Shown piece after piece: positions 8,013 to 28,021 of a stretch of 64,000 bases of DNA. Location of the stretch: NCBI GenBank assembly GCA_913045325.1, contig CAJWPZ010000001.1:149478-213477 (forward strand). Reading direction: 5' to 3'. How positions within the stretch are numbered: position 1 is the stretch's first letter; each line of letters begins with the position of its first letter. The DNA comes from an uncultured Flavobacteriaceae bacterium. Its GTDB lineage: Bacteria > Bacteroidota > Bacteroidia > Flavobacteriales > Flavobacteriaceae. Made by a program: the position numbers and the translations under genes. Below the pieces are notes generated by a model. The model ran no database searches and was not told where the DNA came from. It saw only the letters and a list, made by a program, of their open reading frames with translations.

Positions 8013-10190
8013 ATGAAACAAATACTAATTATTTTGTCTTTTTTAACCCTATTTAGTACCTCAGGGCAAACCCCTTGCACAAACGGAACTGCTGGAGATT
8101 ATCCCTGTAACGGCTTTGACCTTCAGTCTTTTATTAGCCTTGATGAAATGGACGCCTTTGAAGGAAACGATTCTTGGGGATGGACAGATCCACAAACTGG
8201 TAAAGAATATGCTATTATGGGGCTTGATAACGGAACTGCCTTTATTGATATCTCAAACCCAGTTGCTGCAATCTATCTAGGTAAACTCCCAACACATAGT
8301 CAAAACAGTATATGGAGAGATATTAAAACTTACAACAACCATGCGTTTATTGTAAGTGAAGCCTCAAATCATGGAATGCAAGTTTTTGATTTAACCAGGT
8401 TGCGAGATGTCTCTAACCCTCCAGAAAACTTTGACGAAGATGCGCATTATAGCGGTTTTGGAAATGCACATAATATTGTCATTAATGAAGATTCGGGGTA
8501 TGCCTATGCTGTAGGAACTTCAACTTATAGTGGTGGGCCTCATTTTATAGATATTTCAAATCCTTTAAATCCTACACCGGCAGGAGGGTATAGTGATGAC
8601 TCTTACAGTCATGACGCGCAAGTAGTAACCTACTCTGGGCCAGACACAGAACATCTTGGAAAAGAAATCCTTATAGGAAGTAATGAAAACCAAATTGCTA
8701 TTGTAGACATCACAAACAAAAACAACCCTATTAGCCTTTCAACAATATCATACTCAAATGTTGCTTACACACACCAAGGTTGGTTTACTGAAGATCAACG
8801 CTATTTCATTGTAGGTGATGAAATTGATGAGATAAACGTTGGTTTTAATACTAGAACTATTATTTTCGATTTTGAAGACCTGGACGATCCATCGTTTCAT
8901 TTCGAATATGAGGGCCCTACAGAGGCCATCGACCATAATGGCTATGTGAAGGGTGATAAATATTATTTATCAAATTACAGAGCAGGGATGAGAGTTCTTG
9001 ACATCTCACAGATTGGTGATGAAAACATTACAGAACTTGGCTTTTTTGATACCTACCCAGATAGTAACAGTGCAAATTTTAATGGAGCTTGGAGCGTGTA
9101 TCCATTTTTTGCCAGTAATAACATAGTAATTAGTGATATAGACAGGGGGTTCTTTTTAGTAAGAGATCCAAGTCTTGGCCTAGATACAGGTGTAATAGCA
9201 ATCACTTCTCCAACAACTGGAAGTGGCTTGTCTGACGCAGAGGTGGTAACCATAGAAATCCAAAATTTTGGAACTAATACACAAACATCAATCCCAGTAT
9301 TTTATTCTTTAGATGGAGCAGCGCCTGTCAATGAAACTTACACAGGGTCAATAGCACAAGGCGCTACAGACACATATTCATTTACAACGACGGTAGATTT
9401 ATCCGAACTTACAGACTATATAATTGTAGCTGGAACAGAACTTCCAGGTGATATCGATACTTCTAATGATGATACAACTGCTGAGGTATCAAACTTTTTG
9501 TGCCAACCTGAGACAAATTGTACTTTTGGAGATGGTTTAAGATTAGTTTCTATAGAAGAAATTAATAATTCTTCAGGGTGTGAAACAGATGGTTACGGAG
9601 ATTTTACAAATCTAATAGCAAACTTAGCACAAGGTGAAACTTATGATATTACTCTATCTACAGGGTATGGGAATCAATTCGTAAAGATTTGGATTGATTT
9701 TAATGAAGACTTCGCTTTTTCTGACAACGAAGTAATTTTAAATAATTATGTTATTGCTCCAGGATCTACTGCTGGTAATTTTATAGAGACCACAACGGTA
9801 AGTATACCATCAAATGCAACATTAGGTGCTCACACAATGCGAGTAAAAACAAACTGGAACGAAGATGTTCCTGAAGATGCTTGTGAGGAAACAGCATACG
9901 GTGAGACAGAAGATTACACTGCTACCATAATAGAAGATGTGCTGGGTTGGGCAGATGTAGCGCTAATTGATTTTGAAATAGCTCCAAACCCTGCGAAAGA
10001 AAATATTACAATTACGGCTACTTGTGAGCCAATAGAGTCTGTAGAGGTTTTTAACATCCTTGGGCAACGTGTTTTATATTTAACCTTTGATGCCACAATG
10101 GCTAAAAACATTAAGATCAACTCTTTAAATAGCGGAATGTACCTCATTAAAATTAACACACAGATCACCAAGCGCTTAATAGTTAAGTAA
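8013..10190 (+). CDS. Choice-of-anchor B family protein with GEVED-like domain and T9SS type A C-terminal sorting domain
   Basis: Signal peptide; LDNGTAFIDISNP..YLGKLPTH, HNGYVKGDKYYLSNYRAGMRVLDI; GEVED-like FVKIWIDFNEDFAFSDNE..YGETEDYT; C-terminal IAPNPAKENITI..GQRV..LNSGMYLIKI..KRLIVK. Confidence 0.85.
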   Translation: MKQILIILSFLTLFSTSGQTPCTNGTAGDYPCNGFDLQSFISLDEMDAFEGNDSWGWTDPQTGKEYAIMGLDNGTAFIDISNPVAAIYLGKLPTHSQNSIWRDIKTYNNHAFIVSEASNHGMQVFDLTRLRDVSNPPENFDEDAHYSGFGNAHNIVINEDSGYAYAVGTSTYSGGPHFIDISNPLNPTPAGGYSDDSYSHDAQVVTYSGPDTEHLGKEILIGSNENQIAIVDITNKNNPISLSTISYSNVAYTHQGWFTEDQRYFIVGDEIDEINVGFNTRTIIFDFEDLDDPSFHFEYEGPTEAIDHNGYVKGDKYYLSNYRAGMRVLDISQIGDENITELGFFDTYPDSNSANFNGAWSVYPFFASNNIVISDIDRGFFLVRDPSLGLDTGVIAITSPTTGSGLSDAEVVTIEIQNFGTNTQTSIPVFYSLDGAAPVNETYTGSIAQGATDTYSFTTTVDLSELTDYIIVAGTELPGDIDTSNDDTTAEVSNFLCQPETNCTFGDGLRLVSIEEINNSSGCETDGYGDFTNLIANLAQGETYDITLSTGYGNQFVKIWIDFNEDFAFSDNEVILNNYVIAPGSTAGNFIETTTVSIPSNATLGAHTMRVKTNWNEDVPEDACEETAYGETEDYTATIIEDVLGWADVALIDFEIAPNPAKENITITATCEPIESVEVFNILGQRVLYLTFDATMAKNIKINSLNSGMYLIKINTQITKRLIVK

Positions 10191-10195
10191 TCACA

Positions 10196-11554
10196 ATGAA
10201 AAACCTCGCAGCTTTATTTATAATTACCATAGCATTTCTTTGCTCTTGCTCTAATGATGATGGGGTAAACCTACCAGGTCCATACCCAGAAGATTTTTTA
10301 GGAGAAGTTGATTTTGTTAAAACCTTTGGGGGGAGTCAAAATGAGACTATTATAGCTGTTGTACAATCTGGCGATGGCGGCTATGTGTTAATGGGTTCTA
10401 CAGATAGTACCGATGGAGACATTACAGGAAAAAAGGGAGATGATGATGATTTTTGGCTGCTAAAAACAACGCAGGAAGGAGAGGTTGTTTTCAATAAAGT
10501 GTATGGAGGCTCCAATACAGATACCGCAACAAGCCTAATTAATACTGCAGATGGAGGTTTTATTGTATGCGGTTATAGTCAAAGCAGTGATGGAGATGTC
10601 TCAAACAATGAAGGATTTCAAGACTACTGGATAACAAAACTAGACGCTCAAGGCAACATTTCTTGGGAAAAAACCCATGGCTTTGCAGGGTCAGACCAGG
10701 CCCTTAAAATCATCCAGACTGCCAGTGGAAACTTTTTTGTGACAGGCTTTTTTGATGTTTCAGCAAGTGGAAATCAAGGAAATGACGATGGAAAAGCAGC
10801 CAACCCTTCAAAAGCTACCCTGCATGGTGTTGGAGAGTTTTGGGGCATCCTTATGGATCAAAACGGAGATACTATTTGGAGGCGCTACTTTGGCGGCTCT
10901 AGCAATGACAGAAGCTATGATGTTGTAGAGACTGACGATGGTGGCTTTATTATGATTGGGGGTTCTGAGAGTTCAGATTTTGACATTTCAGACAACAAAG
11001 GATCCTATGATTTTTGGATGGTTCGAGTAGCTAGCAATGGAGATAAATTGTGGACCAAATCTCTGGGAGGAAGCGAAATAGATCAAGGATACGGCATCAC
11101 TAAAACAGAAGATGGAAATTATATTATCGTCGGAGACACCAGAAGTTTTGATGGCGATGTTAGCACTTTAAATGGAAATGCAGATGCTTGGGTGGTTAAA
11201 TTCTCGCCTAGTGGAGATATCATTTGGGAAAAAACATATGGCGGTACAGCCTTCGATTCTGCAAAGAGTATTATAGGGTTGCAAAACGGGAATTTTGCCA
11301 TCGTGGGTAATACAAGGAGCTCTATGGAGGGCTTTATAAATAGGGGTCAAAACGATGCCTGGATATTTATTATTGATACAAATGGAAATCTCAAATTTAA
11401 TTATATCATTGGAGGTAGTTCTTTGGATTTTGCCAATGCTGTGCTAGAAACTCAAGACAACAAACTACTTCTTGTTGGATCTACAGAAAGTAACGATATG
11501 GATATCCCAGAAAATAAAGGAAGCCAAGATGCGTTATTAATTAAAATAAAATAA
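10196..11554 (+). CDS. Repeat-containing lipoprotein (predicted propeller-like)
   Basis: Lipobox FLCSCSND; about seven repeats of the form TFGGSxxDxAxSxxxTxDGGFIxxGxSxSxDGD. Confidence 0.75.
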   Translation: MKNLAALFIITIAFLCSCSNDDGVNLPGPYPEDFLGEVDFVKTFGGSQNETIIAVVQSGDGGYVLMGSTDSTDGDITGKKGDDDDFWLLKTTQEGEVVFNKVYGGSNTDTATSLINTADGGFIVCGYSQSSDGDVSNNEGFQDYWITKLDAQGNISWEKTHGFAGSDQALKIIQTASGNFFVTGFFDVSASGNQGNDDGKAANPSKATLHGVGEFWGILMDQNGDTIWRRYFGGSSNDRSYDVVETDDGGFIMIGGSESSDFDISDNKGSYDFWMVRVASNGDKLWTKSLGGSEIDQGYGITKTEDGNYIIVGDTRSFDGDVSTLNGNADAWVVKFSPSGDIIWEKTYGGTAFDSAKSIIGLQNGNFAIVGNTRSSMEGFINRGQNDAWIFIIDTNGNLKFNYIIGGSSLDFANAVLETQDNKLLLVGSTESNDMDIPENKGSQDALLIKIK

Positions 11555-11562
11555 GGGCTCAA

Positions 11563-12339
11563 ATGTTTAAAAAAAAACTCTTTTTACTAATACTAGTGGT
11601 GTTTTTTATGGCTTGTGATAAAAATGATGACCAACCACAAAACACCCCGGTAAGTATTGATTTTTCTCATAGCTTTAATCAACAAGCCATAGATAGCAGC
11701 AGTTTTAACGCCCTGGACTACACAAATGGATTTGGAACAATCCTAAGTCTTACAAGGCTTCGTTATTTAATATCACAAATAAGCTTCACCAACCAACAAG
11801 GTATTAAAACCCTAGTAAAAGATTATCAACTTGTAGACCTAAGTCAAGATAATAGTCTTGCTATTAATGATATTTTACTACCCCCGGGAGCTTATAATTT
11901 AAAAATGCGTTTTGGATTTACAGAAGCCGCAAACACCTCGAGTATATACCCAGATTTAAACGCAGCTTCTTGGAATGTGCCAGATATGCTGGGTGGAGGA
12001 TATCATTACATGCAACTGGAAGGAAGATGGTTAGATCCAGGTGACGACCCTGACGAGCCTTTTTTGTATGCCTACCACACCATTAGCGCAGTCCAAAACC
12101 CCGGTCCAGATAACACAAGAGAGGACACCTCTATAGAGATAGATTTAGGAGAAATAACTGTTACACAGGGCGCTACTCAAATTAATGTTACTATGGATAT
12201 CAATCAGTGGTTTGAAAATCCAAACCTTTGGGATCTAAATACACTTAACGGCATGTTGATGGGTAATTACACCGCCCAAAAAATGATGCAAGAAAACGGG
12301 CAAACTGTATTTTCTCTAGAAACCAATACGGGTGACTAA
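11563..12339 (+). CDS. MbnP-like copper-binding lipoprotein
   Basis: Lipobox FFMACDKN; MbnP family features (VSIDFSHSFN, LTRLRYLISQISFTN, LPPGAYNLKMRFGFTEAAN, MLGGGYHYMQLEGRW) and adjacency to an MbnH-like di-heme peroxidase. Confidence 0.8.
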   Translation: MFKKKLFLLILVVFFMACDKNDDQPQNTPVSIDFSHSFNQQAIDSSSFNALDYTNGFGTILSLTRLRYLISQISFTNQQGIKTLVKDYQLVDLSQDNSLAINDILLPPGAYNLKMRFGFTEAANTSSIYPDLNAASWNVPDMLGGGYHYMQLEGRWLDPGDDPDEPFLYAYHTISAVQNPGPDNTREDTSIEIDLGEITVTQGATQINVTMDINQWFENPNLWDLNTLNGMLMGNYTAQKMMQENGQTVFSLETNTGD

Positions 12340-12350
12340 ATGATTTTTTT

Positions 12351-13424
12351 ATGTTTAAAAAAATACCTCTTGTTTTTTGCCTTCTTTGTATCACTCTCTC
12401 ATGCGGTGAGGATGACAACCAAAATCAAGGGTACTCACCTACACCGGTAAACATAGCTGTTCCAGCCATTTTTTCGCAACTACTCCCTGCTCCAGAAATA
12501 CCTGCCAATAACCAGCTAACACAAGAGGGAGTTGCCCTTGGAAGGGCTTTGTTTTATGAAAAAAATCTCTCTGCAGACAATAGTCTATCTTGTGCGGGAT
12601 GTCATAAACCCAATCAAGGTTTTAGTGACCAGCGCAGATATAGCATAGGTATAGATGGTATTGCCGGGTTTAGAAACTCGATGCCTCTTGTTAACATTGC
12701 TTGGAACACAAACAATAAATTTAATTGGGACGGCAGTGCCGATTCCTTAGAAGAGCAGGTTCTAGAACCTGTTGTAAATGAAATAGAAATGCACAACACA
12801 TGGCCCAACGTTGAGCAGACACTGCAAAGTGACCCGAACTATCTCACTAAATTTGAACAGGCCTTTGGAACTACTACAATTTCTCAAGATCTGATCGCTA
12901 AAGCCCTTGCGCAGTTTATACGCACACTGGTATCGGGAAATGCTAGGTTTGACAATTATCTTCTAGGACAAGCAACACTAACCCCATTAGAGCAGCAGGG
13001 GCTTGCTGTTTTTTTAGATGAAAACCGCGGTGATTGTTTTCATTGCCATGGCAGCCCTAGCAATCCACTATGGACAGACAATGATTTTCATAACAATGGC
13101 CTAGATGAAAATTTTACAGACCTAGGCCTAGGAGATATCACTGGAGACCCAGCCCAATTTGGATTGTTTAAATCTCCCTCCTTGCGCAACCTAGCTTACA
13201 CTGCTCCTTACATGCATGACGGCCGCTTTCAAACATTAGACCAAGTGATAGATCATTACAGTGAAGGGCTAATATTTAGCCCCACTATAGATCCTTTGAT
13301 GAAAACAGTTGCCCAAGGTGGAGTGCAACTCACCCCGCAAGATAAAGCAGCCTTAAAAGCTTTTTTGTTAAGCCTCTCAGATCCATCTCTGGCAAATAAC
13401 CCAGCATATCAAAACCCCAACTAA
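12351..13424 (+). CDS. Di-heme cytochrome c peroxidase, MauG/MbnH-like
   Basis: Two CxxCH heme motifs (CAGCH at 12591-12605, CFHCH at 13035-13049), GRALFYEKNLSADNSLSCAGCHKP, PSLRNLAYTAPYMHDGRFQTLDQVIDHY. Confidence 0.9.
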   Translation: MFKKIPLVFCLLCITLSCGEDDNQNQGYSPTPVNIAVPAIFSQLLPAPEIPANNQLTQEGVALGRALFYEKNLSADNSLSCAGCHKPNQGFSDQRRYSIGIDGIAGFRNSMPLVNIAWNTNNKFNWDGSADSLEEQVLEPVVNEIEMHNTWPNVEQTLQSDPNYLTKFEQAFGTTTISQDLIAKALAQFIRTLVSGNARFDNYLLGQATLTPLEQQGLAVFLDENRGDCFHCHGSPSNPLWTDNDFHNNGLDENFTDLGLGDITGDPAQFGLFKSPSLRNLAYTAPYMHDGRFQTLDQVIDHYSEGLIFSPTIDPLMKTVAQGGVQLTPQDKAALKAFLLSLSDPSLANNPAYQNPN

Positions 13425-15410: not shown

Positions 15411-15839
15411 ATGAAAAAAATAATTGTACTAATTACTCTATTTATAGGCCTTAGCGCTTGTAAAAATGATCAAAAATCAACCTTAGTCACCACAGAAAAC
15501 TCAAACCTTGCGGTTTACAAAGGTGAGTTTATCTTCACAGACGGCGCTGCTGTTTTAAAAGGAAGTGACTTTATTTATGGGGTGGTTGTAGATGATAAGA
15601 TGAAAGAATTGGCCGATAAGGTGGCGCCTGTAAAAAAAGATGTCTATGATATGGTTGCAGTAATTGTAACAGGAACATTAGCTCCAGGGCCTCAAGACAA
15701 AGAAACGTGGGGTGAGTTTTTAACCATCATAGATATTGTACAAGTGAGCGCTAAGCCAGCACAGGCAGATGTTAAAATAAAAGAAGGTGACGCGGCAAAT
15801 AAAACCGAAAAAGCCATTAAAAAAGTTGAAGAAAAATAA
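15411..15839 (+). CDS. Small lipoprotein of unknown function embedded in suf operon
   Basis: 142 aa ORF with lipobox (GLSACKND) lying between sufB and sufC on the same strand. Confidence 0.8.
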   Translation: MKKIIVLITLFIGLSACKNDQKSTLVTTENSNLAVYKGEFIFTDGAAVLKGSDFIYGVVVDDKMKELADKVAPVKKDVYDMVAVIVTGTLAPGPQDKETWGEFLTIIDIVQVSAKPAQADVKIKEGDAANKTEKAIKKVEEK

Positions 15840-23471: not shown

Positions 23472-26400
23472 ATGAACATTAAATTACTCTCTCAAAAAAA
23501 TACACGCACGTATCGATTTGTAAAGAATCTAAGCACTACCGTAGCCTCTATGGTGGTTTTTTTATGTCTTAGCGTGTCATATGGTCAAACTACGATTCCT
23601 TGTGCCGACGGTGCTTTTAATGACACCTATTGCTACACTGCTAATGATACTACTGAAATTGTATATACCAGTGATACAGGGTTCCCTTTAAAATTAACAT
23701 TTATTGAAGGAACTGTTGAGCTAAATTTTGATGAAGTTGTCATTTTAGACTCAGATGGAGTTACCAATCTTAATGCTGGTAACCCTTATGGAAATACGGG
23801 TGATATGTCCGGATTTGTTTTTGAATCTAGTGGAGACACCATAACACTTCAAGTTACCTCAGATGGAATTGCAAGTTGTGTAGATGGGTTGTTTGTTCCA
23901 TTAAATTATGATATTAATTGTTTAACCTGTACAGATCCAACCATTGAGTTTACAAACGACGGAATGTGTGAAACAGGGCAACAATTCACCATTGGTGTAG
24001 ATATTACAGATCTAGGTAGTTCTACTAGTATCACAGTTACTGATGACCAAGGAAGTGCGGCTCAAACTGCAACAACGGCAGGTGTTTTATTCTTCGGTCC
24101 TTACCCTGCTACAACAGGAGTTACCTTCACTGTTGACACTGGAGATTTAAATTGTGATTTCACAAGTGGTATCATTGAGTGCCAAGCTCAAGGAAGTTGT
24201 GATGTACTGGATGCTGGTTTTGATATGTTTATAGATTGTGAAACATTTTGCACAGATCTAGTTGCAGATTATATAGCCTTGCCAAATCTAGACACTACCT
24301 CTTATCAAATTCAAGGACCTCTTTGTGATGTGCCTCCTGTTACTGGTGGTACTCCAACAAATCTAACAATAGATGATGTTTGGAGTGGTGTGATTGCATT
24401 GCCTTTCGAATTTAATTTTTACGGTAATTCTTATACACAGGTTGTTGCTGGTGCAAACGGGCAACTTTCTTTTAACGCTGCCCTGGCTGGAAATTATAAC
24501 GGATGGGCTATGGATCCTGCAGATCAGATTCCTACCAATGATGCCAACTATCCTTTAAACACAGTTTTTGGCGCCTACCATGATATTAATCCTGCTGTAG
24601 CTCCAGCGGCTCCAGATAGAGTCAACTATTTTGTAAATGGAGTTGCTCCTTTTAGAGTTTTTGTGCTAAATTTTAATGCAGTACCTCAATTTGGATGTAA
24701 CGAGCTTTTAACAACCCAGCAAATCTTATTGTATGAATCATTAAACGTAATTGATGTAAATATTATCAATAAACCTGTGTGTGATACCTGGAATGGTGGT
24801 CTTGCTGCCATAGGATTACAAGGAAATAATCTTACAGAATTTAGTGTCCCTGAAGATAGAAATGTTGGAGTATGGGATGTTACCAATGAAAATTGGCGTT
24901 TTGTTCCTAATGGAGGTCCTGTAACAAATGCAAGTGTATTTGAGTGGAGAGATGCTGCCGGAAACGTGCTTAGTAACGATCCTCTATTTACGGTATGTCC
25001 AGATCAAACTACCGTTTATACTGCGGCACTAGTGGTAGAATTACCTGACGGAAGTTTTAATGAACTTACAGATGACATAACGGTAACCAAAGAATCTGGA
25101 TGTTCTCCTTTTGATTGTACAGATGATGCATTCTTAGAAGACTTTGGTACGGGTGTGGGTAGAACTACGCATCCTTTTACACCTTTAGAATTTAATGCAA
25201 CCACACAGCTAGAGGCTAACCAATATGCAGTAACCAATATTTCAAGTGGGCTTAATTTTGGATGGCATCAAGGTATGGAAGACAATACTAGTGGTGACAC
25301 AAACGGAAGAATGATTTTCTACAACCCTTCTGAAGATACAAATCAAATAGAATTATATAGAAGAGATATCGCCGTTACGGCAAACACTTCTCATATTTTT
25401 GATTTTGCCATGACAACAGTATATGATATCGATAGTGGTATTTGCCCAGGAACAGGTACAGATTCAAGACTTATTTATCAAATTGAAGATGCTGCGGGTA
25501 CTGTTCTAGCAACAAGTACAACTGGTAATGTGACAAATGGTGCAAACCCAAACTGGATTAGATATTCTCTAGAGTTTAACCCTGGAGCTAACACAACAAT
25601 CCAGGTGGTTCTATTAAATGACATATTTGGGGCCTGCGGAAACGACCTTGCCGTAGATGACCTAAGAATTCGTGCAGAAGGCACCTCGCCAACTGTAGAA
25701 GATCCTTTGGATATGTTCTCTTGTGAGGACACCCCAGGAAGTAATGTTGCAACCTTTGATCTTACCTCCCAGATTGTAGAGATATTAAATGGTCAAAACG
25801 CTGCAGATTTTGAAATCACATTTCATGCCTCTCAAGAGGATGCTGACTCAGGAGATAACCCAATAGCAACTCCTGCTGCATATCAAAACACGGTAAACCC
25901 TGAAACTATTTACACAAGGGTACAGCGTTTAAATCAAGAAGATTGTTTCACGACAACATCTTTTGATTTGATTGTTGAATTGCCTGTAGTAATTACAACC
26001 AATTTACCATCACAATTAGATGTGTGTGCTAATGAAGATGCTGCTGCCATAGATGCTACACCAACCAATAGTGGTATAGACCTTGACACAGTAACTTATG
26101 ATTGGAAAAATGCGGGTGGCACTACAGTGTCTACAGAGGCGGTATTTACTCCTTTAGAGTCTGGTACCTATACCGTGACAATTACTATCCCGCCATGTAG
26201 TGAAACTACTGTGAGTATAGAGGTAGTGGTAAATCCAGTTCCAGATCTAGATTTAGGAGAAGATGTTACCCTTTGTGATAGCGAAGACTTTGAAATTATT
26301 CCAAGTATTTCTGGAGACACTGAAGGGGCAAGTTTTTTATGGAGTACAGGTGCTACAGACACTACTATATTTGTAGACCAAAGTGGAACCTACTCTCTTG

Positions 26401-27011
26401 AGATTACTACCGTTGATGGCTGTGTTGTTACAGATGATATTGTTGTCGTTATTTCAGACCCAGTAGTGGTAACGCTTAATGAAGATTTTGATGTTTGTCC
26501 AAATTTTGAAACTATTATTACTGCAAACTCTAGTGATGCTGGTGTAACATACCAATGGTTTGAAAATGGAACATTAATTCCTGACCAGGGAGAAAACACC
26601 TTAGTTATTATCTTATCGCAAGACGGTGCGTCCACTCAAGAATATAGCGTGGTAGTTACAAACAGTGATGGCTGTATGGGAACTGCTGTTGTGAATGTAT
26701 CTCTGTATACAGATAATGAAAACTGTGTTATTTCTCAAGGTATCTCTCCAAATGGAGATGGCCTTAATGATGTGCTGGATCTTAGTTTCTTGAACAATAG
26801 AACAGGAATTAATTCTTTCCAGATATTTAACAGAAACGGAACCGCTGTTTATGAATTTACCAACTACTCAAACCAGTGGGGAGGACAAACAACAGACGCA
26901 GAAGAATTACCAACAGGAACCTATTACTATGTGTTAGGTCTAAATGGAGAAGATCCTGTATTTGGATCTAGCTATACTGGATGGGTTTACATCAATAGAG
27001 AGAAAAACTAA
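23472..27011 (+). CDS. Large T9SS type B sorting-domain (gliding-motility C-terminal) surface protein
   Basis: 1179 aa; C-terminal GISPNGDGLNDVLDLSF..FQIFNRNGTAVYE..W.G..LPTGTYYYVL..GWVYINR. Confidence 0.9.
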   Translation: MNIKLLSQKNTRTYRFVKNLSTTVASMVVFLCLSVSYGQTTIPCADGAFNDTYCYTANDTTEIVYTSDTGFPLKLTFIEGTVELNFDEVVILDSDGVTNLNAGNPYGNTGDMSGFVFESSGDTITLQVTSDGIASCVDGLFVPLNYDINCLTCTDPTIEFTNDGMCETGQQFTIGVDITDLGSSTSITVTDDQGSAAQTATTAGVLFFGPYPATTGVTFTVDTGDLNCDFTSGIIECQAQGSCDVLDAGFDMFIDCETFCTDLVADYIALPNLDTTSYQIQGPLCDVPPVTGGTPTNLTIDDVWSGVIALPFEFNFYGNSYTQVVAGANGQLSFNAALAGNYNGWAMDPADQIPTNDANYPLNTVFGAYHDINPAVAPAAPDRVNYFVNGVAPFRVFVLNFNAVPQFGCNELLTTQQILLYESLNVIDVNIINKPVCDTWNGGLAAIGLQGNNLTEFSVPEDRNVGVWDVTNENWRFVPNGGPVTNASVFEWRDAAGNVLSNDPLFTVCPDQTTVYTAALVVELPDGSFNELTDDITVTKESGCSPFDCTDDAFLEDFGTGVGRTTHPFTPLEFNATTQLEANQYAVTNISSGLNFGWHQGMEDNTSGDTNGRMIFYNPSEDTNQIELYRRDIAVTANTSHIFDFAMTTVYDIDSGICPGTGTDSRLIYQIEDAAGTVLATSTTGNVTNGANPNWIRYSLEFNPGANTTIQVVLLNDIFGACGNDLAVDDLRIRAEGTSPTVEDPLDMFSCEDTPGSNVATFDLTSQIVEILNGQNAADFEITFHASQEDADSGDNPIATPAAYQNTVNPETIYTRVQRLNQEDCFTTTSFDLIVELPVVITTNLPSQLDVCANEDAAAIDATPTNSGIDLDTVTYDWKNAGGTTVSTEAVFTPLESGTYTVTITIPPCSETTVSIEVVVNPVPDLDLGEDVTLCDSEDFEIIPSISGDTEGASFLWSTGATDTTIFVDQSGTYSLEITTVDGCVVTDDIVVVISDPVVVTLNEDFDVCPNFETIITANSSDAGVTYQWFENGTLIPDQGENTLVIILSQDGASTQEYSVVVTNSDGCMGTAVVNVSLYTDNENCVISQGISPNGDGLNDVLDLSFLNNRTGINSFQIFNRNGTAVYEFTNYSNQWGGQTTDAEELPTGTYYYVLGLNGEDPVFGSSYTGWVYINREKN

Positions 27012-27100
27012 TATTATATAAAGATGAACTTGTATTAGGCCTATAGGTTTTAGAGCTTTCGTATTCTTGATACAATCAATATAAAATAAACACCACAGAA

Positions 27101-28021
27101 ATGAAAAAAATACTATCAATACCATTACTACTATTATGTGTTTTACTTTGTTCCAAAGAGGCAAATGCGCAGCAAGACCCTCAATACACACAATTCATGT
27201 ACAACATGAATGTTGTAAATCCTGCCTATGCAGGATCTAAAGAGAACATTTCCTTTACCTCTTTATATAGGTCACAATGGGCCGCTTTGGATGGAGCGCC
27301 AACCACATTTACTTTTTCAGGACACGGTCCTTTAAATGATAAAGTTGGAGTTGGTTTTTCTGCGGTGAAGGATGAACTTGGACCTGTAAATGAAACCAAT
27401 GTGTTTGCAGATTTTTCATACACCCTGCAACTAAGCCCAACTACAAAATTAGCACTTGGTCTTAAAGCCGGAGCTACTTTTCATGATGTAGGTTTGGTAG
27501 ATTTAGAATTACAAGATCCTAATGATCCATTTTTTAGTCAAGACATTAGCAGTGTGTATCCAAATATTGGAGCGGGTGCTTTTTTATATGCAGACAAATT
27601 TTACGTTGGTGTGTCGGTGCCTAACATGTTAAACTCTGTTCATCTGGATGCAAACGGAACACAAATTGGATCTGAGGTGAATCACTTCTTTGGTACTGCA
27701 GGGTATGTTTTTCAAGTTTCAGAAAACACGAAGTTAAAGCCTTCTGTTTTGGTTAAGTCTGCTTTTGGAACTCCGGTTTCTTTTGACGCTAACTTAAATG
27801 CCTTATTTTTCGAAAAGTTTGAATTGGGTGTCTCTTATAGAGTAGATGACTCATTTAGTGGTCTTGTTGGATTTCAAGTCCTGCCAGAGCTTCGTATAGG
27901 ATATGCCTATGATGCAGTTACTTCAGATATTAATTTTGTAGCCCCATCATCACACGAAATTATTCTAACGTTTGATCTATTTACTAACAAGCGTACTTTA
28001 CGTTCACCAAGATATTTCTAA
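27101..28021 (+). CDS. PorP/SprF family type IX secretion membrane protein
   Basis: QQDPQYTQFMYNMNVVNPAYAGSKENISFTSLYRSQWAALDGAPTT is the family N-terminal signature. Confidence 0.95.
   Translation: MKKILSIPLLLLCVLLCSKEANAQQDPQYTQFMYNMNVVNPAYAGSKENISFTSLYRSQWAALDGAPTTFTFSGHGPLNDKVGVGFSAVKDELGPVNETNVFADFSYTLQLSPTTKLALGLKAGATFHDVGLVDLELQDPNDPFFSQDISSVYPNIGAGAFLYADKFYVGVSVPNMLNSVHLDANGTQIGSEVNHFFGTAGYVFQVSENTKLKPSVLVKSAFGTPVSFDANLNALFFEKFELGVSYRVDDSFSGLVGFQVLPELRIGYAYDAVTSDINFVAPSSHEIILTFDLFTNKRTLRSPRYF

Follow-up and report, generated by a model that had tools for sequence, protein, structure and literature searches.

A four-gene cluster conserved in Flavobacteriaceae joins exported beta-propellers to a non-canonical MbnP/MbnH pair

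According to our analysis, positions 8013 to 13424 of the window (the whole 64,000-nucleotide stretch of DNA that was analyzed) hold four genes, here called A, B, P, and H, whose order recurs across the family Flavobacteriaceae, with one to five copies of A ahead of B, P, and H. A and B encode exported beta-propellers, and the last two genes constitute a genuine, non-canonical MbnP/MbnH system. We hold with roughly even confidence that the cluster is a conserved surface module in which the MbnP/MbnH pair is a maturation cassette serving the propellers.

The four open reading frames all lie on the plus strand and are separated by gaps of 5, 8, and 11 bp. Gene A (8013 to 10190) encodes a choice-of-anchor-B protein (TIGR04312, LVIVD-type) in which the beta-propeller (amino acids [aa] 21 to 385) is followed by a GEVED domain (aa 557 to 637) and a T9SS type A tail (aa 656 to 725), all assigned by profile matches. 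Gene B (10196 to 11554), which adjoins A in all clusters, encodes a lipoprotein with an SBBP-type beta-propeller according to its profile match. Gene P (11563 to 12339) encodes an MbnP-family lipoprotein with a variant candidate copper site, as judged from the Pfam profile PF20243 and a structure match, and gene H (12351 to 13424) encodes an MbnH/MauG-type di-heme lipoprotein recognized by profile matches and conserved catalytic-type residues. By inspection, a signal peptide is present in A, and a lipobox-like Cys with acidic residues after it is present in each of the other three products (CSNDDG in B, CDKNDDQ in P, and CGEDDN in H). These findings bear out the sequence-only reading, which had described four exported same-strand genes with short gaps, each product bearing a signal peptide or lipobox, the first being a choice-of-anchor-B T9SS protein and the second a repeat lipoprotein. 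Its proposal of surface anchoring is likewise in agreement with the T9SS tail and the acidic lipobox tails, which fit a surface location of the cluster products. Export and heme attachment are plausible, since the host genome encodes T9SS components and cytochrome c assembly. Promoter and terminator scans of the cluster gave background levels, and RNA folding of the region 3′ of H was no better than that of shuffles. Elsewhere in the window, a 142-aa lipoprotein-like ORF without a Pfam match lies between sufB and sufC (15411 to 15839), and a large T9SS-secreted CHU_C protein is followed by a PorP/SprF-family membrane protein (23472 to 28021).

Among 121 genomes of this family, 57 have MbnP and 66 have choice-of-anchor B, and in 39 of the 57 MbnP-positive genomes the coordinates place MbnP a few kilobases downstream of A on the same strand. 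The 38 family loci that we read show A(1-5)-B-P-H on one strand, the exceptions being L048 and L070, where P had been missed by the automatic gene caller. A search with B in named genomes yielded 80 loci, about 67 of which carry P and/or H after A-B, from Aequorivita, Ulvibacter, Aquimarina, Dokdonia, Kordia (where H is displaced downstream by at least one gene), Tenacibaculum, Mesonia, and Psychroflexus, among others. The co-occurrence survey proposed in the sequence-only reading thus came out positive, as the two upstream genes accompany the P-H pair in many genera, and the order recurring in the family and in most named loci means that the cluster is not due to chance. Phylum-wide, none of the matches listed places A and P side by side outside Flavobacteriaceae. 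A-B also survives without P-H in one lineage: it is all that is present in 12 of the 80 named loci (mainly Flagellimonas, Muricauda, and relatives; one further contig ends there), and it stands alone in seven more family genomes, in which MbnP was not found anywhere.

Since thiL and the suf operon flank 72 of 106 P-H clusters, much of this recurrence is inherited synteny and not independent. The same flanks, together with the occurrence of A-B without P-H, are what would be expected if A-B and P-H were ancestral neighbors at a stable thiL-suf locus, devoid of any functional link. We nevertheless consider such simple neighborhood very unlikely, since the order persists in 15 loci that have no suf downstream, 7 of which are also without thiL upstream, since every variant P in the loci read sits in an A-B cluster, and since one P-H pair seems to have been replaced by another at the same place.

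This replacement involves two MbnP clades occupying the same slot, one comprising 25 canonical MxWxW proteins (support, 99/100), found in Aquimarina, Dokdonia, Kordia, and Mesonia, and one comprising 69 variant proteins (support, 100/100). The subtypes of P and H matched in all 103 typed loci (26 with canonical P and type-1 H, 77 with variant P and type-2 H, and none mixed), a few genomes being present in both of the locus sets counted. As the subtypes never mix although both use the same slot, P-H behaves as one cassette. A quick tree of B requires four changes to account for the canonical state, and well-supported branches force at least three of them; the P-H pair therefore seems to have been swapped as a whole, with A-B remaining in place. 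This exchange is the strongest indication that the pair as such is important to A-B.

For B, no Pfam family was found, and its assignment as an SBBP propeller lipoprotein comes from profile matching (CylK, 7e-31; the LipL53-type match is weak). Its Asp314 and Arg316 are kept in 102 and 106, respectively, of 106 P-H loci and in none of the 19 loci without P-H that were compared (L123, L127, L130, L133, L136, L143 to L145, L148 to L151, L161, L163 to L166, L168, and L169), a lineage in which His166-x-His168 (window numbering) is strictly conserved. As essentially a single lineage makes up the loci without P-H, this split may be phylogenetic.

The product of gene A is a clear choice-of-anchor-B member, scoring 584 bits against TIGR04312 (cut-off, 100). 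Its T9SS type A tail (46 bits) has counterparts in 26 of 49 choice-of-anchor-B members, the anchor being variable, and in the structure model the propeller reaches a pLDDT of about 95 outside the linker, the sorting linker being disordered. Residues H153, H200, H254, H308, D269, E270, D272, and E273 are each invariant in 117 of 117 sequences; the four His, one per repeat unit in four units, have their codons within positions 8469 to 8936 (plus strand) and mark a possible metal site, which the invariant His/Asp/Glu set as a whole looks like. The best fold match is the phosphotriesterase of Sphingobium sp. TCM1 (5hrm, 1e-9), and many other propellers match as well. A transfer of the phosphotriesterase metal ligands onto A was dropped, the sequence profile match not being significant (0.64), and the paper searched for these ligands gave none. 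Across the family, copies of A are anchored by a T9SS tail or else by a lipobox, and they occur in tandem with up to four or five copies ahead of B (L044, L082, L083, L084, and L096). The genome of the window has a second choice-of-anchor-B gene (L167; G000:C5:19625-20692), T9SS-tailed and not adjoining B, P, or H.

With a partner of this kind, H might chiefly modify A or B, in a MauG-like maturation of a metallo-propeller, with P donating copper as a stand-in for SCO1. The LVIVD propeller with its invariant His, Asp, and Glu residues and the Sphingobium enzyme as top fold match would suit such a role, as would the weak match of the methanethiol oxidase model to 3 of 61 A domains (3.6e-6), an enzyme for which such a maturation has been proposed (mtoX-SCO1-mauG operons). 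However, the A of the window itself has no match to that model, the invariant residues of A are kept equally in loci without P-H, and a search of A and B for Trp, Tyr, His, Met, or Cys residues confined to P-H-bearing loci found none, so that we judge a modification directed chiefly at the propellers to be quite unlikely.

P belongs to the MbnP family according to its Pfam match (PF20243, 89.6 bits; cut-off, 27), and no match was found in NCBIfam. Its AlphaFold model (pLDDT, 91.9) has the MbnP fold, the sole matches in the PDB at an E value of ≤0.001 being six chains of Methylosinus trichosporium MbnP 7l6g (best, 4.2e-7; TM-score, 0.53 to 0.57; probability, 1.00). Sequence searches of the PDB did not retrieve MbnP when the query was the P of the window by itself or the alignment of cluster P proteins; a wider alignment did. 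Manesis et al., in PNAS in 2021, are said to have assigned the Cu(I) ligands of MbnP to His, Met, and a kynurenine derived from the first Trp of WxW. By profile alignment, M-A-W-N-W and H-V-G of 7l6g were placed on the P family (MxWxW...HxG). Combining this alignment with conservation, we delimit a candidate copper site within positions 11971 to 12078 (plus strand), with Trp137 (11971 to 11973), His148 (12004 to 12006), and His172 (12076 to 12078) as its residues. Trp137 aligns with the first, kynurenine-forming Trp of WxW and is kept in 65 of the 69 variant members, the other 4 having Phe, whereas His172 (the aligned copper His), the variant-specific His148, and W223 are invariant in all 69. 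In the window, the motif reads W137-N-V139, with the second Trp of WxW replaced, and HxG has become HTI; the Met ligand is without counterpart in the variant clade, with Ala135 in the window where canonical members have Met. Positions 139 (Trp/Val) and 174 (Gly/Ile) co-vary (23 W-G, 45 V-I, and 1 V-V), largely along the tree. The earlier description of P as MbnP-like thus stands for family and fold, and the site of P in the window is not the canonical one. A variant site would instead be made of the two His and Trp137, in surroundings altered compared to the canonical ones, and it may be closer to the site of CorA/MopE than to that of MbnP.

A Tenacibaculum-type subclade (L046, L064, L068, and L137) has Phe at the predicted kynurenine position of P beside a fully intact H, which makes it a natural test of the Trp-to-kynurenine model: either another Trp (e.g., W223) would be modified there, or P would work without kynurenine. 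This combination is the best evidence against a universal modification of W137. The genome of the window also has a second MbnP-MbnH pair (L001, G000:C2, approximately 102777 to 104373), downstream of genes for an ECF-type sigma factor and a small exported protein; its P has a canonical MYWTW site, is without a lipobox, and sits on a very long branch.

H matches CCP_MauG (1e-54), and among NCBIfam models it scores best with TIGR04039, "MbnH family di-heme enzyme," reaching 240 bits, which is below the equivalog cut-off of 362.85 that no match in the 121 family genomes reached. Its best PDB match is MbnH 6e1c (1e-51), scoring above MauG and the bCCPs. The two heme motifs are CAGCH (C81-H85; 12591 to 12605) and CFHCH (C229-H233; 13035 to 13049), and Tyr303 (13257 to 13259, all plus strand) aligns with the axial ligand Tyr294 of MauG. 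Residues C81, C84, H85, W126, Q136, P140, E146, C229, C232, H233, and Y303 are each present in 106 of 106 cluster H proteins; in an alignment whose MauG reference segment is identical to the PDB sequences, Trp126, Gln136, Pro140, and Glu146 correspond to Trp93, Gln103, Pro107, and Glu113 of MauG. With the MauG-type Tyr as distal ligand of the second heme and an MbnP encoded next door, H is MbnH-like with two CxxCH motifs, as had been proposed. The CCP_MauG fold is common to H and bCCPs, and H could in principle be an ordinary di-heme cytochrome c peroxidase clearing hydrogen peroxide at the surface, with P as an electron transfer or structural partner. Yet a Tyr at the axial position characterizes MauG-type enzymes, whereas peroxidases have Met or His (PMC7567364). 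This invariant Tyr, the higher score of MbnH than of bCCP and MauG, and the strict subtype pairing of P with H make a mere peroxidase highly improbable.

Under the reading of P-H as a cassette maturing the surface propellers, H would be exported and act as an MbnH/MauG-type di-heme oxidase using peroxide-derived high-valent heme, and most likely it would oxidize Trp137 of P to kynurenine, as MbnH does with MbnP. The oxidized residue, with His172 and probably His148 replacing the Met of MbnP, would then form a Cu(I) site on P, a predicted surface lipoprotein. P-H would be accessory to the two exported propellers, and the most probable connection is a supply or relay of copper or electrons from matured P to A; we infer this direction from P to A/B, as we do any mechanism beyond the modification of P by H. 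A more specific version, in which H builds a His/His/kynurenine copper site on a divergent P, and P loads or drives a hitherto unrecognized class of His-ringed LVIVD propeller metalloenzymes, so that TIGR04312 proteins would be copper or manganese enzymes, is speculative and rather unlikely.

The sequence-only reading had proposed a methanobactin-independent module for the acquisition of copper (or another metal) or for post-translational modification; MbnP/MbnH pairs independent of methanobactin are in fact already known (PMC3621798). In an acquisition system, P would scavenge Cu(I) outside the cell like MopE or CorA and pass it inward, A and B being scaffolds or receptors. Both MopE and CorA are copper proteins of the cell surface that are repressed by copper and have di-heme partners (PMC3912023), and the acidic tail after the lipobox Cys in 95 of 97 typed P proteins fits surface display. 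However, across the window, the family, and the named loci, the conserved A-B-P-H unit contains no TonB receptor, copper ATPase, or copper chaperone/transporter. Moreover, the variant P-H was seen solely beside A-B, yet A-B persists in genomes without MbnP, and a role accessory to A-B therefore fits better than stand-alone uptake. On these grounds, we depart from the acquisition proposal, which we regard as unlikely.

Literature text searches for MbnP with Bacteroidota and for the choice-of-anchor-B family gave no matches, and we found no earlier description of the cluster arrangement or the copper-site variant; what appears to be new is a surface cluster of four fixed parts, a copper site with variant residues, and a P-H pair exchanged as one cassette. 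To our knowledge, MbnP/MbnH pairs are widespread and have no known purpose outside methanotrophs. In many cultured marine genera (Aequorivita, Ulvibacter, Aquimarina, Dokdonia, and Kordia), P-H keeps the same identified partners; it exists in two forms that can replace each other, and its presumed copper ligands and presumed kynurenine vary naturally. The role of the pair and that of choice-of-anchor-B proteins can therefore be tested in culturable strains.

Among known systems, the MbnP/MbnH pair of M. trichosporium OB3b (PF20243/TIGR04052 and TIGR04039, the "metallo-mystery pair") resembles P-H as an adjacent exported pair, in the fold of P (7l6g), in the copper-site Trp and His, and in having the nearest relative of H (6e1c). 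The differences are that the variant P has no Met ligand, that its second Trp of WxW is also missing in the window, that His148 is invariant, and that P and H sit behind two propeller genes and not near methanobactin genes. CorA/CorB and MopE/SACCP of methanotrophs likewise combine a surface copper protein (here predicted) with a di-heme partner. The copper sites of CorA and MopE comprise two His and a kynurenine, with the di-heme partners suggested as oxidant (PMC3912023), and the variant P offers two His and a Trp; however, CorA has Kyn-x-His spacing, whereas W137 and H148 are 11 residues apart in P, and the likeness is one of site residues. MauG of Paracoccus shares the equivalents of Tyr294, Trp93, and Glu113 with H, but H scores lower against it than against MbnH, and its substrate methylamine dehydrogenase is not part of the cluster. 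The Sphingobium sp. TCM1 phosphotriesterase (5hrm), the top match of A by fold, is an LVIVD-like propeller, as is A. Finally, the gene for methanethiol oxidase, a copper propeller enzyme (SBP56), typically has SCO1/SenC and mauG-like genes as neighbors (PMC5739008). The mtoX-SCO1/SenC-mauG arrangement thus parallels the cluster in uniting a propeller with conserved His, a MauG-like enzyme, and a copper-handling protein (predicted here), although the propeller of our cluster belongs to TIGR04312 and MbnP takes the place of SCO1.
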